Source: Kribbella flavida DSM 17836 (GTDB taxonomy: Bacteria; Actinomycetota; Actinomycetes; Propionibacteriales; Kribbellaceae). Taken from it: a DNA stretch of 64,000 nucleotides. The stretch is taken from NCBI RefSeq assembly GCF_000024345.1, contig NC_013729.1, positions 6,572,001 through 6,636,000 of the forward strand, given 5' to 3'. Positions 36,697 through 42,624 of the stretch are shown in pieces. The notes beneath the pieces are model-generated. The model ran no database searches and was not told the origin of the DNA. It was given only the letters and a program-made list of their open reading frames with translations. The first letter of the stretch is position 1, and the number at the start of each line of letters is the position of its first letter. Position numbers and translations under genes: made by a program.

Positions 36697-37326
36697 ATGA
36701 ACACCTTGGACCTGCTGCGCGCCGACCGGGTGCTGAGCGTCGTCCGGGCGCCGGAGATCGGCGACGCGCGCGACCTGTGCGCGGCTCTCGTGGCCGGCGG
36801 CATTCACGTGATCGAGCTGACGTTCACCACCCCGGACCTGCCGCGGCACCTGGAACGGGCCGCGTCCGGTGACACCGGGGCCGTGGTCGGCGCCGGGACC
36901 GTGCAGACCGCCGACCAAGCCCGGACCGCGGTCGCGGCCGGGGCTCAGTTCCTGGTCACGCCCGGCCAGGGACCGGAGGCGGCCGAGGTGGTGGGCGCGG
37001 CGCACGGCGCCGGCGTACCGATCGTGCTCGGCGCGCTGACGCCGTCGGAGGTGATGACGGCGGTCGCGCTCGGAGCGGACGCGGTGAAGATCTTCCCGGC
37101 GCACCAGTTCGGGCCGAAGTACTTCAAGGACCTGGGCGGGCCGTTCCCCGGCGTACCGCTGATTCCCTCCGGCGGGGTGAACGCCGGCAACGCCCGTGCC
37201 TTTCTCGACGCGGGCGCGCTCGCGGTCAGCGCCGGCACCGACGTCGTCTCCCCCGCCGACGTCGCGGCCGGCCGCTGGTCCGGCATCACCGCCAAGGCCC
37301 AGGCGTTCTGCGCGGCCCTGGACTAG
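36697..37326 (+). CDS. KDPG/KHG aldolase
   Basis: 209 residues, class I 2-keto-3-deoxy-6-phosphogluconate aldolase (Eda type). Features: LLRADRVLSVVRAPE at the start, GGIHVIELTFTTP with the catalytic Glu, VVGAGTV, and the Schiff-base lysine in DAVKIFPAHQFGPKYFKDL; PSGGVNAGNARAFLDAGALAVSAG closes the barrel. It splits KDPG into pyruvate and glyceraldehyde 3-phosphate. ATG at 36697 follows GAGAGGA. It is the last gene of the rightward operon and its stop shares the four bases CTAG with the convergent PheRS-like gene. Confidence 0.93.
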   Translation: MNTLDLLRADRVLSVVRAPEIGDARDLCAALVAGGIHVIELTFTTPDLPRHLERAASGDTGAVVGAGTVQTADQARTAVAAGAQFLVTPGQGPEAAEVVGAAHGAGVPIVLGALTPSEVMTAVALGADAVKIFPAHQFGPKYFKDLGGPFPGVPLIPSGGVNAGNARAFLDAGALAVSAGTDVVSPADVAAGRWSGITAKAQAFCAALD

Positions 37327-38441
37327 GTGATCAGTTCCAGGACCGGGCCTTCGTGCACGGCCTTGTAGACCTTGTCCCGCAGCTGGTTCGCCTCCGGATC
37401 GGTCAGCGTTCGATCGACCGACCGGAGGACCAGCCTGATCAGCACGTTGCGCTGCCCCGGACTCAGCTGGAGGCGGTCCCGGGCCGCCTCCGGCAGTTCG
37501 TCGTACGCCGTTTCGCCGCGCACTTCGACGGACTCGGCCACCTCCTCGTCCGGCCCGAGCGCTTGCCGGACCCGGTCGCCCAGCAGCTCGGGAGACAGAT
37601 CGGTGTCCGGCCCGACGACGACCGACAGGTCACGGCGTACGGCGGGCATCGCGGAAACCTCCTTGTAGGGCAGCAGATCCAGCATCTGACCGGCCACCCG
37701 CGGATCGGTGGACCGGAGCAGGCGGATGTCGCGGATGCCCTTGCGCAGCATCAGCAGCCGGTCGAGGCCGGGGCCCATCGCGAGCCCGGTCCAGCGCTCG
37801 TCGAGGCCCGCTCGGCGCAGGACGTGCGGCGCCGCCACACCGCACTCGCCGATCTCGATCCAGTCGTCGCCGAGCCGGACGTCGATCTGCCGGCCGTGGG
37901 TCGTGTACGGGTGGACGGCGGGCACCGTCCGGTACGTCTGACCCGGTAGCACCGTTTCGACCAGGTGCGCGATCATCGCCTCCAGTTCGGGCTCGCCGAG
38001 GGTGATGTCGCGGCTGATCCGCCAGAGGTCGAGCTGGTGCGGGGTGCCGGTGTGCTGCCAGTCGACCGAGTCGCGGCGGTAGCAGATCCCCGCGCAGACC
38101 ATCAGGACGTCGGTCGAGCCGGAGGCCGCCAGCTCGCGCAGCGCCGGCGGGATCATCGCGGACGTGTGGCTGCGCAGCACCTCACCGGCCGAGGCGTAGC
38201 GGGTGTAGCGCGCGTCCCGGGTGACCGCGTCGGCGGCGTACCCGAGGTTGTCGTAGTTGTCGGCGAGCGGCACGACCGGGTGGTCGCGCCGGGTCCAGAT
38301 CTCCGTGTACGGCCAGGCCTGGCCGAGCGTCGTACGGAGCGAGTCGACGATCAGCTGCAGGGCGTGCGGGCCCTGGGCCGGATCGGTGAGGTCGCGCAGG
38401 GACAGCGCGGCGTGCAGTTCCGGGGTGCTGAGAACAGCCAT
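37323..38441 (-). CDS. Single-chain phenylalanyl-tRNA synthetase-like protein
   Basis: 372 residues. Residues about 1-260 are a class II synthetase core of PheS type: LRSHTSAMIP (motif 1 region), CYRRDSVDWQHTGTPHQLDLW (motif 2) and GLAMGPGLDRLLMLRKGI (motif 3). Residues about 265-372 are an FDX-ACB domain (MPAVRRDLSVVVGPDTDL), which in bacteria normally ends PheT. The fusion has the layout of mitochondrial PheRS, with no coiled coil and no B3/B4 parts. Pocket residues differ from PheS: GFAFGMG is GLAMGPG and HQxEG is HQLDL, so phenylalanine specificity is doubtful. ATG at 38441 follows AGGAG; a possible attenuator lies upstream. Confidence 0.82.
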   Translation of the reverse strand: MAVLSTPELHAALSLRDLTDPAQGPHALQLIVDSLRTTLGQAWPYTEIWTRRDHPVVPLADNYDNLGYAADAVTRDARYTRYASAGEVLRSHTSAMIPPALRELAASGSTDVLMVCAGICYRRDSVDWQHTGTPHQLDLWRISRDITLGEPELEAMIAHLVETVLPGQTYRTVPAVHPYTTHGRQIDVRLGDDWIEIGECGVAAPHVLRRAGLDERWTGLAMGPGLDRLLMLRKGIRDIRLLRSTDPRVAGQMLDLLPYKEVSAMPAVRRDLSVVVGPDTDLSPELLGDRVRQALGPDEEVAESVEVRGETAYDELPEAARDRLQLSPGQRNVLIRLVLRSVDRTLTDPEANQLRDKVYKAVHEGPVLELIT

Positions 38442-38447
38442 CGGGAA

Positions 38448-38512
38448 TCTCCTGAGATGAGCAGGTGCGGGGAGCCAGAACACCCCGACCGGTCGTGGTC
38501 ACCTCAGGGAGA
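38448..38512 (-). promoter_or_regulatory. Possible translational attenuator of the PheRS-like gene
   Basis: In the minus-strand RNA, TCTCCCTGAG (38512-38503) can pair with CTCAGGAGA (38456-38448) through nine base pairs and one bulged C. The second strand contains the AGGAG ribosome site of the synthetase gene; the first is the last few codons of the leader frame. A ribosome on the leader stop would open the pairing. Confidence 0.5.
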
Positions 38513-38588
38513 GAACGCGGCAGCGATCCACCCCGTCGGCACCACTGTGCCGGCCGGGGCGCGGAAATCGCTGCCCGTGCTGCTGCAT
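38499..38588 (-). CDS. Putative 29-residue leader peptide before the PheRS-like gene
   Basis: A leaderless-type small reading frame: a -10 box TACAGT (38596-38601 on the minus strand) lies exactly seven bases before its ATG. The peptide reads MQQHGQRFPRPGRHSGADG then VDRCRVLSLR and uses rare codons CGA and TTT at residues 7-8. It ends 57 bases before the PheRS-like start. Its final codons (38503-38512) can pair with the downstream ribosome site (38448-38456). The call rests on position, promoter spacing and pairing; there is no homology evidence. Confidence 0.45.
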   Translation of the reverse strand: MQQHGQRFPRPGRHSGADGVDRCRVLSLR

Positions 38589-38655
38589 GCGACCTACTGT
38601 ACCCGGCGCGCGCAGCGCCGTCCGGAGATTTCCCCAGGGTGCGAGGATCGGCCTC

Positions 38656-39696
38656 ATGCGATGGATCGACGGGTTGGAAGCGACCGCGGCGGAGAGACTG
38701 CCCGCGGCGGTGCACCGGTACTTCCGGCAGGGGTCGGCGGGCGGCATCAGCGCGGGCGAGGCGGTCACCGCCTGGTCGTCGTACCGGTTCCGGCCGCGGG
38801 TGCTGACCGACGTGTCGACGGTCGGTACCAGTACGACGGTGCTCGGCACGCCCGTCGACGGGCCGGTGCTGGTCGCCCCGACCACCTTGCAGCGCCTGGC
38901 CGATCCCGGCGGTGAGGCGGCGATGGCCGCCGGCGTCGCGACGGCCCGGTCGCTGCTCGGCGTGTCCAGCAACGCCGGTACGACGTACGCCGAGATCGGC
39001 GCGACCGGGGCGCCGTGGTGGCTGCAGATCTACCTGACCCGCAACCGCGACATCACCGTGCGCATGCTCGACGCGGCGGTCGCCGCCGGCGCGCGCGCCG
39101 TCGTTCTGACCGCCGACACCCCGGTCGTCGGACGCAAGGAAGACGACGGGCCGACGGTCTGGCAAGCCGTCGGCCCTGGCGACCTGCGGGCGAACCTCGA
39201 CGCGGAGCTGTACTCCGACGAGGATCTGGCGAAGGCCGACGACCTGACCCCGGACGTGATCGGCTGGCTCGGCGAACGCACCGGGCTTCCCGTGGTGGTC
39301 AAGGGCGTGCTGCGCGGCGACGACGCCCAGCGCTGCGTCGCGGCGGGCGCGGCCGGCCTGATCGTGTCGAACCACGGCGGCCGGCAGCTCGACGGCGCGA
39401 TCGCCAGCGCGCACGCGCTGCCCGAGGTCGTCGAGGCGGTCGCCGGCACCGGCACCGAGGTCTACGTCGACGGCGGTATCCGCCGCGGCGAGCACGTGCT
39501 GGCCGCGCTGGCCCTCGGCGCCCGCGCCGTCTTCGTCGGCCGCCCGGCCCTGTGGGCGCTGACCGCCGACAGCTCCGCCGGCGTCACCCGCCTGCTCACC
39601 GACCTGTACGCCGAACTCGCGCACGCCCTCACCCTTGTCGGCGTCCCCCACCCCGACGACCTCACCCCCGACCTCGTGGTCCCGTCCCCTCTTTGA
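38656..39696 (+). CDS. FMN-dependent alpha-hydroxy-acid oxidizing protein
   Basis: 346 residues of the glycolate oxidase/lactate oxidase/mandelate dehydrogenase family. The FMN-barrel signature is SNHGGRQLDG, containing the active-site His and Arg, with VVLTADTPVVGRKE and EVYVDGGIRRGEHVLAALALGARAVFVGRP as further family blocks. It oxidises a 2-hydroxy acid to a 2-oxo acid; the substrate is not fixed by sequence. ATG at 38656 has AGGA upstream; the longer in-frame N-terminus is unsupported. It diverges from the PheRS-like gene. Confidence 0.9.
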   Translation: MRWIDGLEATAAERLPAAVHRYFRQGSAGGISAGEAVTAWSSYRFRPRVLTDVSTVGTSTTVLGTPVDGPVLVAPTTLQRLADPGGEAAMAAGVATARSLLGVSSNAGTTYAEIGATGAPWWLQIYLTRNRDITVRMLDAAVAAGARAVVLTADTPVVGRKEDDGPTVWQAVGPGDLRANLDAELYSDEDLAKADDLTPDVIGWLGERTGLPVVVKGVLRGDDAQRCVAAGAAGLIVSNHGGRQLDGAIASAHALPEVVEAVAGTGTEVYVDGGIRRGEHVLAALALGARAVFVGRPALWALTADSSAGVTRLLTDLYAELAHALTLVGVPHPDDLTPDLVVPSPL

Positions 39697-39823: not shown

Positions 39824-40546
39824 TCAGGCGTCGCTGCCGTCCTCGAGCAGGTTGCGGGTGATGTTGGGGTCCACCTGGACGCCCGGACCCATCGTGGTCG
39901 AGAAGACGGCCTTCCTGATGTAGCGGCCCTTCGAGCTGGAGGGCTTCAGCCGGAGAATCTCCTCCAGGGCGGCGCCGTAGTTCTCCACCAGCTGCGCCTC
40001 GTCGAACGACGCCTTGCCGATGATGAAGTGCAGGTTCGCGTGCCGGTCGACCCGGAACTCGATCTTGCCGCCCTTGATGTCGGTGACGGCCTTGGTGACG
40101 TCCGGGGTGACGGTGCCGGTCTTCGGGTTCGGCATCAGACCACGCGGGCCGAGCACGCGACCCAGCCGGCCGACCTTGCCCATCATGTCCGGGGTCGCGA
40201 CGACGGCGTCGAAGTCGAGCCAGCCGTCGGTCACCTTCTTGATCATGTCGTCGTCGCCGACGTAGTCGGCGCCGGCGGCCTTGGCGGCCTCGGCCTTCTC
40301 ACCGGTGGCGAAGACGAGGACCCGTGCCGTCTTGCCGGTGCCGTGCGGAAGGTTGACGGTGCCGCGCACCATCTGGTCGGCCTTGCGGGGGTCGACCCCG
40401 AGCCGCATCGCGACGTCGACCGTCGAGTTGAACTTCTTGCTGCCGGCCGCCTCTTTGGCGAGCTTGATCGCCTCGAGCGGGGTGTACAGCTTGTCGAAGT
40501 CGATCTTCTCCGCGATGGAGCGGTAGGCCTTGCTGCGCTGTGCCAT
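39824..40546 (-). CDS. rplA: 50S ribosomal protein L1
   Basis: 240 residues. [21 protein letters not shown] opens the protein; [22 protein letters not shown] is the L1 signature. L1 forms the E-site stalk and in many bacteria binds its own mRNA to repress rplK-rplA. ATG at 40546 follows AGGAGA; a longer frame upstream is unsupported. It lies 115 bases after rplK. Confidence 0.98.
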
Positions 40547-40661
40547 TGCTTTTCTCCTGTGTGCGGACGATGGCTCATCGTCCGTTGTGGTTATGGCGGA
40601 CAGCTCGCGCTGCCCTTCCACAACTGCCTGAGTTCTGAGTACTACGCGTGCGCCGGACGGC

Positions 40662-41093
40662 TCACTTGTCGACGGTGACGCCCATCGAACGGGCGGTGCC
40701 CTCGATGATCTTCATCGCGGCGTCGATGTCGCGGGCGTTCAGGTCCGGCATCTTGGTGGTGGCGATCTCGCGGACCTGGTCCTTGGTGATCTTGCCGACC
40801 TTGTCCTTGTGCGGGACCGGCGAGCCCTTCTGCAGACCGGCGGCCTTCTTGATCATCTCCGGCGCCGGCGGCGTCTTGGTGACGAAGGTGAAGGACCGGT
40901 CTTCGTAGATGGTGATCTCGACCGGGACGACGTTGCCACGCATGGACTCTGTCTGCGCGTTGTACGCCTTGCAGAACTCCATGATGTTGACGCCGTGCGG
41001 ACCGAGCGCGGTACCGACCGGCGGGGCCGGCGTCGCGGCACCTGCGTTGAGCTGCACCTTGACCAGGGCAGCGATCTTCTTCTTGGGAGGCAT
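40662..41093 (-). CDS. rplK: 50S ribosomal protein L11
   Basis: 143 residues, with [39 protein letters not shown] in pieces as the N-terminal proline-rich domain (site of thiostrepton-resistance mutations) and [27 protein letters not shown] as the rRNA-binding C-terminus. ATG at 41093, nine bases after nusG; co-transcription with nusG and secE is the usual arrangement. Confidence 0.98.
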
Positions 41094-41102
41094 TTCGGGT
41101 CC

Positions 41103-42305
41103 TTAGACTTTCTGGATCTGGCTGAAGCTGAGTTCCACCGGGGTCTCCCGGCCGAAGATCTCGACCAGCGCCTTGATCCGCTGGGCGTCGGCGTTGATCT
41201 CCGTGATCGTGGCGTGCAGGGTCGCGAACGGCCCGTCGACGACCATGACCGAGTCGCCCACACCGAAGTCGGCGACCTCGACCTTCTTCTTGGCCGCGGT
41301 CTTGGTGGGTGCGGCACCGGTCTCGGCTGCCGCCGCCTCGGCCGCCGCCACGACGGCCGGAGCGAGCATCTTCTCGACCTCTTCGAGGCTGAGCGGTACT
41401 GGCTTCTGGCTGTTGCCGACGAAGCCGGTCACCGACGGCGTGTGCCGCACGGTCGACCAGGACTCGTCGGTCAGGTCCATCCGGACCAGCACGTAGCCGG
41501 GGAGCACGGTGCGCTTCACCATCCGGCGCTGCCCGTTCTTGATCTCGGCGACCTCTTCGGTCGGCACGACGATCTCGAAGATGTAGTCCTCCATGTTCAG
41601 GGAGTTGATCCGGTTCTCCAGGTTGCCCTTGACCCGGTTCTCCATCCCTGAGTACGTGTGCACCACGTACCAGTCGCCGATCTGCGAGCGCAGCGTGCTG
41701 CGCAGCTCCTCCAGCGGGTCGCCCGGCTCCTCCGGCTCGGCCTCTGGCTCGGCCTCGTCGGTGGTGTCGTCGTCGGTCGCGGCGGAGGCGGTCGCGGCGG
41801 AGGCGGCGGCGGTCGCCGCGAAGGCGTCCATGTCCGCGTCGTCGGCCTCGTCCTCGTCGTCGTCCTCGTCGTCCGGCGCGTCCACGTCCGCGGCGGCGAC
41901 GGTCTCGTCCTCGTCGGCCTGCTCGTCGGCCTGCTCGTCGGCGGACTCCGGGGCGTCGGCGGCGAGCTCGTCGGTGGTGTCCTCGACGTCGGTGGTGGTG
42001 ACCACCTCGTCGTCCTCGGCGGCGTTGGCCGCCGCGACGATCACGACCGGCTCGTCGTCGGAGTCGTCCGCGTCCTCGGCACCGTCCTCGGCCTCGTCGT
42101 CGGCGGAGTACTCCGCCTCGGCGGCGACGTCCACGAACGGGTCGTCGTCGTCGGCGACGAACAGGTCGTCGTCGTCCTCGGTGCTGTCGTCGAGGTCGAG
42201 GTCCAGGTCGAGCTCGACGTCGTCGTCGGCGTCAGCGGACAAGTCGAAGTCGTCCTCGAAGTCGAGGACCTCGTCGTCACGCTCGGACACGTTGTACTCC
42301 GTCAT
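41103..42305 (-). CDS. nusG: Transcription antitermination factor NusG with a long acidic extension
   Basis: 400 residues. The NusG core begins at about residue 208 ([22 protein letters not shown]), with [10 protein letters not shown] and the C-terminal KOW domain [23 protein letters not shown]. Between NGN and KOW there is an Ala/Glu-rich insertion of about 30 residues. Residues 1-205 are an extremely acidic region of Asp, Glu, Ala and Val with no recognisable domain, much longer than the 50-90 residue extensions I know from other actinobacteria. ATG at 42305 is used; an in-frame TTG at 42326 is possible and neither has a clear ribosome site. Confidence 0.93.
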
Positions 42306-42381
42306 CTGTGCATCGGGTGTTGTCAACAGCGGTCAGGTCGTCGACCCGGGACCGCGGCCGTGGATCGCCTCGGCGGCGGCG

Positions 42382-42624
42382 TCAGCCGAAGATCTTGAAC
42401 ATCGCCCAGCCGAAGGCCAGGTCGAGCACCGACACGAACGCGATGACGAACACCACGAAGGTCAGCACGACCACGAAGTAGGTGGACAGCTGCTTGCGGG
42501 TCGGCCAGACGACCTTGCGGAGCTCGGCCACCACCTGGCGGTAGAAGCGCAGCAGGCGGTTGCCCGACCTGCTCTCCGCAGGCTTGCCGGCGCCGGACGG
42601 TGCCGGGGTGCGCGTCTCCGTCAC
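42382..42624 (-). CDS. secE: Protein translocase subunit SecE
   Basis: 80 residues: a polar N-terminus, the amphipathic FYRQVVAELRKVVWPTRKQL segment and one transmembrane helix (FVVVLTFVVFVIAFVSVLDL). It is the single-helix bacterial form that clamps SecY. GTG at 42624 follows AGAGG. Located between tRNA-Trp and nusG as in most actinobacteria. Confidence 0.96.
   Translation of the reverse strand: MTETRTPAPSGAGKPAESRSGNRLLRFYRQVVAELRKVVWPTRKQLSTYFVVVLTFVVFVIAFVSVLDLAFGWAMFKIFG

Follow-up and report, generated by a model that had tools for sequence, protein, structure and literature searches.

A probable ribosome-mediated translational attenuator with a single phenylalanine codon upstream of a PheRS-like gene in Kribbella flavida and its relatives

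The E. coli pheST attenuator combines several Phe codons in a leader with a transcription terminator, and serves the housekeeping PheRS. The erm translational attenuators utilize a leader ORF and a Shine–Dalgarno (SD) sequence hidden in a helix, which is opened by the position of the ribosome; sensing is by a drug-dependent arrest peptide. In Streptomyces coelicolor, an auxiliary antibiotic-resistant TrpRS gene is reportedly under ribosome-mediated attenuation, as described by Vecchione and Sello. In Actinobacteria, the LEU element upstream of leuA comprises a leader peptide, a predicted pseudoknot, an SD-holding base stem and alternative structures (Seliverstov et al. 2005, PMC1262725), and its run of Leu codons is itself paired with the leuA SD (PMC1262725). 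The translational T-box of actinobacterial ileS also belongs to a synthetase gene and acts by SD sequestration (PMC1262725). For phenylalanine genes, the same study reports no element conserved among Actinobacteria.

The locus described here lies in a 64,000-nucleotide stretch of the Kribbella flavida DSM 17836 genome (NC_013729.1, 6,572,001 to 6,636,000), referred to as the window, in which all positions are counted. The region upstream of srmL likely attenuates translation of an auxiliary PheRS-like enzyme through the position of ribosomes on the leader, with induction when Phe-tRNA(Phe) is scarce. Its gene, leader and promoter features are as follows.

38596..38601, minus strand: -10-like hexamer TACAGT, 7 nt (AGGTCGC) 5' of the leader ATG, which implies a leaderless transcript.
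38499..38588, minus strand: leader ORF of 29 codons, MQQHGQRFPRPGRHSGADGVDRCRVLSLR; a homologous ORF lies 5' of SrmL in nearly all relatives.
38588-38586 and 38501-38499, minus strand: leader ATG and leader stop TGA, respectively, as read in the sequence.
38565..38570, minus strand: CGA-TTT, encoding Arg7-Phe8, the putative sensing codons (CGA 38570-38568, TTT 38567-38565).
37323..38441, minus strand: srmL, encoding a PheS-related mystery ligase of 372 aa without Phe; start ATG at 38441.

The srmL product matches NF051887 with 512.8 bits (cut-off 300). It possesses a class II PheRS-like core and an FDX-ACB domain (PF01409, PF03147), the architecture of mitochondrial PheRS, and human mitochondrial PheRS provides its nearest solved structures both by sequence and by fold (structure model with mean pLDDT 81.5 and pTM 0.69). 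The YRRD of motif 2 and the arginines of motif 3 are invariant among SrmLs, as is the pocket motif HPYT. The corresponding motif in PheS is FPFT; given this difference, the substrate of SrmL may not be Phe. Judged from these sequences, the reading of SrmL as a functioning PheRS is somewhat favoured, in which case it would charge tRNA(Phe). The composition of the protein is distinctive. Phe accounts for 0.10% of 31,658 SrmL residues, with no such depletion of Tyr (2.4%) or Trp (1.6%), and 70 of 85 proteins are entirely Phe-free; the few with 2-4 Phe belong to the Arthrobacter group. The window genes would lead one to expect about 8 Phe per SrmL, and the canonical PheS encoded elsewhere in the K. 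flavida genome contains 19 in 370 residues. SrmL occurs sporadically, in 26 of 395 class-level genomes; no tRNA-Phe gene was found near srmL at the loci tested, and a literature search yielded no paper naming the SrmL ligase or an auxiliary bacterial PheRS. A minus-strand cluster at 39824-42624, identified as secE-nusG-rplK-rplA from ORF translations only, is situated near the gene. Transcribed divergently from srmL is a gene for an FMN-dependent alpha-hydroxy-acid dehydrogenase (about 38656-39696, plus strand), the two start regions being only ~70 bp apart.

An earlier, sequence-only reading had placed TACAGT seven bases before a 29-codon frame, and this is confirmed: a TANNNT hexamer is spaced 6-9 nt from the leader start codon at 61 of 82 SrmL loci, so that the leader transcript presumably has a leaderless start. 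The same reading had called the CGA-TTT pair rare, which is borne out by the codon-usage controls, namely eight window genes and the SrmL genes. TTT makes up 1 of 54 Phe codons in the former and 1 of 28 in the latter; CGA makes up 3 of 180 Arg codons (1.7%) and 6.6%, respectively. In K. flavida, the leader UUU is the sole Phe codon of the whole leader–srmL message. The leader peptides match no NCBIfam or Pfam family.

A strict-pattern leader is present at 44 of 46 loci examined from Kribbella and a sister family, and one of the two misses, Actinopolymorpha pittospori, carries a variant leader. At the class level, SrmL loci contain short leaderless ORFs that are divergent in sequence and share an R-x-F in which Phe is encoded by TTT, with a C-run behind it. 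When GTDB contigs were scanned, 80 named loci were obtained in Actinomycetota and Myxococcota, including Arthrobacter, Nocardia and Amycolatopsis. Among the 82 SrmL loci of these two phyla, 81 have TTT as the leader Phe codon and one has TTC, and the hexamer CGATTT occurs in 72; the frame, for which conservation among relatives had been proposed as a check, is conserved. Its start codon, reading frame and stop are preserved in nearly every lineage, and the C-run begins two codons past TTT at essentially all loci. In predicted folds, the TTT is largely unpaired (mean paired 0.24) versus a paired segment 1 directly behind it (0.91), hence pairing does not explain the conservation of the codon. 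At the level of sequence, this conservation is decisive in placing the leader beyond chance, and the UUU codon is very probably the sensor. When the 395 class-level genomes were pattern-searched for a Kribbella-type leader outside SrmL loci, the sole exact match was the site in the window itself, the other matches being scattered with one mismatch each; the element thus appears to be tied to SrmL. A second Kribbella SrmL copy (L038, G036:C50) retains the anti-SD region and has lost the UUU leader, and upstream of one copy from Arthrobacter (L163) a leader could not be recognised.

Between the UUU codon and the srmL start, five strands are arranged in the order segment 1, segment 2, anti-SD, segment D and SD, the geometry of an attenuator, with the C-rich segment 1 just past UUU and the G-rich segment D between the anti-SD and the SD.

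38550..38561, minus strand: segment 1, CGCCCCGGCCGG, which has two alternative partners, segment 2 (forming hairpin P1, as predicted for the fold of minimum energy) and segment D.
38529..38543, minus strand: segment 2, GGTGCCGACGGGGTG, the partner of segment 1 in hairpin P1 of the minimum-energy fold.
38499..38512, minus strand: anti-Shine-Dalgarno strand, TCTCCCTGAGGTGA, consisting of the final leader codons and the stop.
38481..38492, minus strand: segment D, CCGGTCGGGGTG, which is complementary to segment 1 or else folds into hairpin P3 (about 38490-38465).
38448..38460, minus strand: SD-bearing strand, TCATCTCAGGAGA, which pairs with the anti-SD strand.
38453-38449, minus strand: AGGAG, 45 nt past the leader stop.

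The strand TCTCC-C-TGAGGTGA (38512-38499) pairs with the SD-bearing strand (38460-38448) through 13 base pairs, including one G.U, around one bulged C. The pairing and the bulge had been recognised earlier, with the helix taken to be nine base pairs, which is too short. This duplex has an energy of -18.9 kcal/mol compared with -10.4 +/- 2.0 when the upstream region is shuffled by dinucleotides; 4 in 2000 such shuffles are as good, and the combined shuffle test for SD sequestration gives p 1e-9. The sequences involved vary by lineage (CCCTTCGCGG with CCGCGAAAGG in the Jiangella family, GTCCTCGCG with CGCGAGGAC in Pseudonocardia), and yet the pairing is kept among relatives: over 40 clusters, the own partner beats 82% of the foreign ones. 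For segment 2 as the partner of segment 1, the same own-versus-foreign test gives 0.73 as a cluster average and 0.52 within Kribbella. Segment 1 also pairs more strongly with its own partner than with foreign ones. In a test of segment 1 with segment D, anchored on the C-run and the G-run only, in which six flanking bases were scored, 4.51 of the 6 are paired versus 3.41 +/- 0.17 after shuffling; none of 20000 shuffles, which ignore phylogeny, reaches this value, and several of the changes lie in unrelated lineages (L124, L132, L145, L155, L174 and L180). The pairs in this helix are of the GC, TA, AT and CG types. Because the anti-SD:SD and segment 1:segment D helices cross, they would form a pseudoknot if both are present. 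As computed from sequence, the region has alternative, mutually exclusive RNA structures, one of which hides the SD, and a leader with an SD switch is almost certainly real.

Such strong covariation could also be expected of an RNA element without a regulatory peptide, such as a riboswitch or a protein-binding pseudoknot, in which the ORF would be incidental. This is a very remote prospect, since the start, frame and stop are kept nearly everywhere, the -10 element stands at leaderless spacing in most loci, and conservation among the unpaired bases is highest in codons, CGATTT. Nor does the region match an Rfam family: a scan for a T-box or any other family returned chance hits only, with E 0.64 and 9.2. 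A T-box or another Rfam leader was accordingly rejected for want of a covariance-model match, and a LEU element was rejected as well, there being no run of Leu codons and the gene being srmL.

SrmL genes on plasmids, found after the main analysis, serve as an independent check. Those of the gammaproteobacterium Azotobacter chroococcum and of Glutamicibacter nicotianae both have the UUU leader, as predicted, and their products contain one Phe and none, respectively. The Glutamicibacter gene (L187:3980-5098) adjoins a gene for the chloramphenicol exporter Cmx, a plasmid of Corynebacterium diphtheriae carries a truncated copy (L188:3001-3645) flanked by erm(X) and tet(65), and the Azotobacter gene (L186:3989-5101) is surrounded by transposases. 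A resistance role for SrmL fits these plasmid neighbours and is not proven by them; the plasmid copies carry no flag from resistance-gene predictors. About 30-75 nt 5' of the Azotobacter SrmL start, the segment-D hairpin resembles an intrinsic terminator, GCCCCTGG...CCAGGGGC followed by TTTTCTTTT, and this lineage may consequently have switched to transcription attenuation.

The neighbourhood of cmx, erm(X) and tet genes would also suit control by an arrest peptide of the erm or TnaC kind, whereby the nascent R-x-F-x-x-P, still in the exit tunnel, would sense a drug or metabolite by binding it, and the resulting stall would open the SD. The motif R(x)F-x-x-P is indeed common to the leader peptides of two phyla. 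However, the conserved residues past Phe fall in the pairing bases of segments 1 and 2, so that RNA pairing accounts for their conservation, the C-terminal residues of the leader differ between lineages, and it is the codon, not the residue alone, that is preserved. An arrest peptide is accordingly improbable. The sequence-only reading had compared the locus with erm-type attenuators; it was right in kind, in that control would lie with the translating ribosome, with the UUU codon as the probable sensor in place of an arrest peptide or the stop.

The mechanism proposed for the attenuator builds on the conserved ORF, its UUU codon, the spacing from UUU to segment 1, SD sequestration, the covariation of segments 1 and D, and the Phe-poor protein. 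The transcript would begin at the leader start codon, where a 70S ribosome would initiate without a Shine-Dalgarno sequence. By default, or during unhindered translation of the leader, segment 1 would be paired within P1 or in the long-range helix with segment D, and the anti-SD would hold the SD, keeping srmL off. When Phe-tRNA(Phe) is scarce, for instance owing to inhibition of the housekeeping PheRS or shortage of Phe, the ribosome would pause while UUU awaits decoding in the A site, the P site being occupied by CGA. The front of the ribosome would then lie on segment 1, leaving segment 2 free to compete for the anti-SD and thereby exposing the SD. SrmL itself, being almost or entirely free of Phe, could be synthesized at full speed despite the shortage of Phe-tRNA(Phe). 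We infer the stalling at UUU, the on-direction and the exact rearrangement that frees the SD; for the on-direction, the near-absence of Phe from SrmL is the main ground, and it is also the best evidence for what is sensed. Induction by a shortage of Phe-tRNA is, on these sequences, probable. Counting against an attenuator is that the leader has one Phe codon only, unlike the several of classical attenuators, and that the attenuator logic does not account for the segment 1:segment D helix.

The cost of opening the SD was computed on nested folds with the ribosome footprint masked, across lineages that are not fully independent. The mean cost of 6.3 kcal/mol changes by -1.1 with the ribosome at UUU and by +0.6 nine codons later (paired p 0.0009); along the leader, the profile drops with UUU in the A site, rises ~nine codons on and drops again near the stop. 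The contrast between UUU and the position nine codons on is -1.69 kcal/mol in native sequences (p 0.0009) versus -0.36 (p 0.09) in chimeras joining the leader from one lineage to the downstream part from another, and native and chimeric contrasts differ with p 0.008. In these nested, masked folds, no SD release at UUU is found in Kribbella itself, and a universal release across lineages is likewise not found, the average effect being modest. In the modelling, exposure of the SD by a stalled ribosome is supported on average rather than demonstrated.

The same folds bear on the opposite direction of control, in which reading through the leader would turn srmL on and a stall at UUU, by covering segment 1, would turn it off. 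A ribosome on segment 2 or at the stop would free segment 1 for segment D, and when bound at the stop it would cover the anti-SD. Segment 1:segment D is the best covarying helix, the stop commonly lies 17 codons past UUU, and in 16-18 of 37 lineages a ribosome bound there makes opening of the SD cheaper by >1 kcal/mol, clearly so in Kribbella (8.0 to 4.2). However, opening in the average folds is as favoured with the ribosome at UUU as at most later codons, the Phe-free protein and the choice of the rare UUU would be left without a reason, and several lineages lack any overlap of stop and anti-SD, all of which make this direction unlikely. The last point also bears on the earlier suggestion that a ribosome reaching the leader stop would melt the SD helix. 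The stop lies inside the anti-SD in Kribbella and Arthrobacter, as that suggestion supposes, but in Actinopolymorpha, Amycolatopsis and several Myxococcota ~70-150 nt separate it from the SD, so that melting by a stop-bound ribosome is not a universal step.

In its widest form, the preferred reading, induction by a stall at UUU, extends to SrmL as a mobile, inducible, inhibitor-resistant PheRS purged of Phe, which could be translated once Phe-tRNA(Phe) is exhausted, with a single sensor Phe codon in a leaderless ORF and a pseudoknotted SD switch, the cassette spreading as a unit among Actinomycetota, Myxococcota and a gammaproteobacterium, which has it on a plasmid. This extended picture has about an even chance of being right. 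It gives the NCBI 'mystery ligase' family a testable role, emergency phenylalanyl-tRNA synthesis. If true, the condition under which the gene must be expressed would have shaped its coding content in an unusually clean way, the protein avoiding its own amino acid and the sensor being a single codon. The existence of natural PheRS inhibitors would also be suggested, and possibly that of a mobile resistance gene. Similar avoidance of the own amino acid could be sought among other auxiliary synthetases.

The srmL switch is an RNA regulatory family absent from Rfam. Compared with the pheST attenuator of E. coli, it likewise places Phe coding in a leader ahead of a PheRS or PheRS-like gene, but the terminator and the several codons are found only in pheST. 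The erm attenuators and the srmL leader have a leader ORF and a hidden SD in common; the arrest-peptide motif is not needed in srmL. In the ileS T-box, the RNA reads the tRNA directly, without a leader ORF, whereas the srmL leader has no T-box match. By architecture, the LEU element is nearest, being alike in leader peptide, pseudoknot and SD stem, while srmL differs in having a single UUU outside the SD helix and a PheRS-like ligase as the gene. By logic, the nearest is the TrpRS gene of S. coelicolor, also an auxiliary synthetase-like gene with a stall at codons for its own amino acid; there, however, attenuation is transcriptional and depends on Trp codons, whereas srmL utilizes a different RNA, SD sequestration, a single UUU and a Phe-poor protein.
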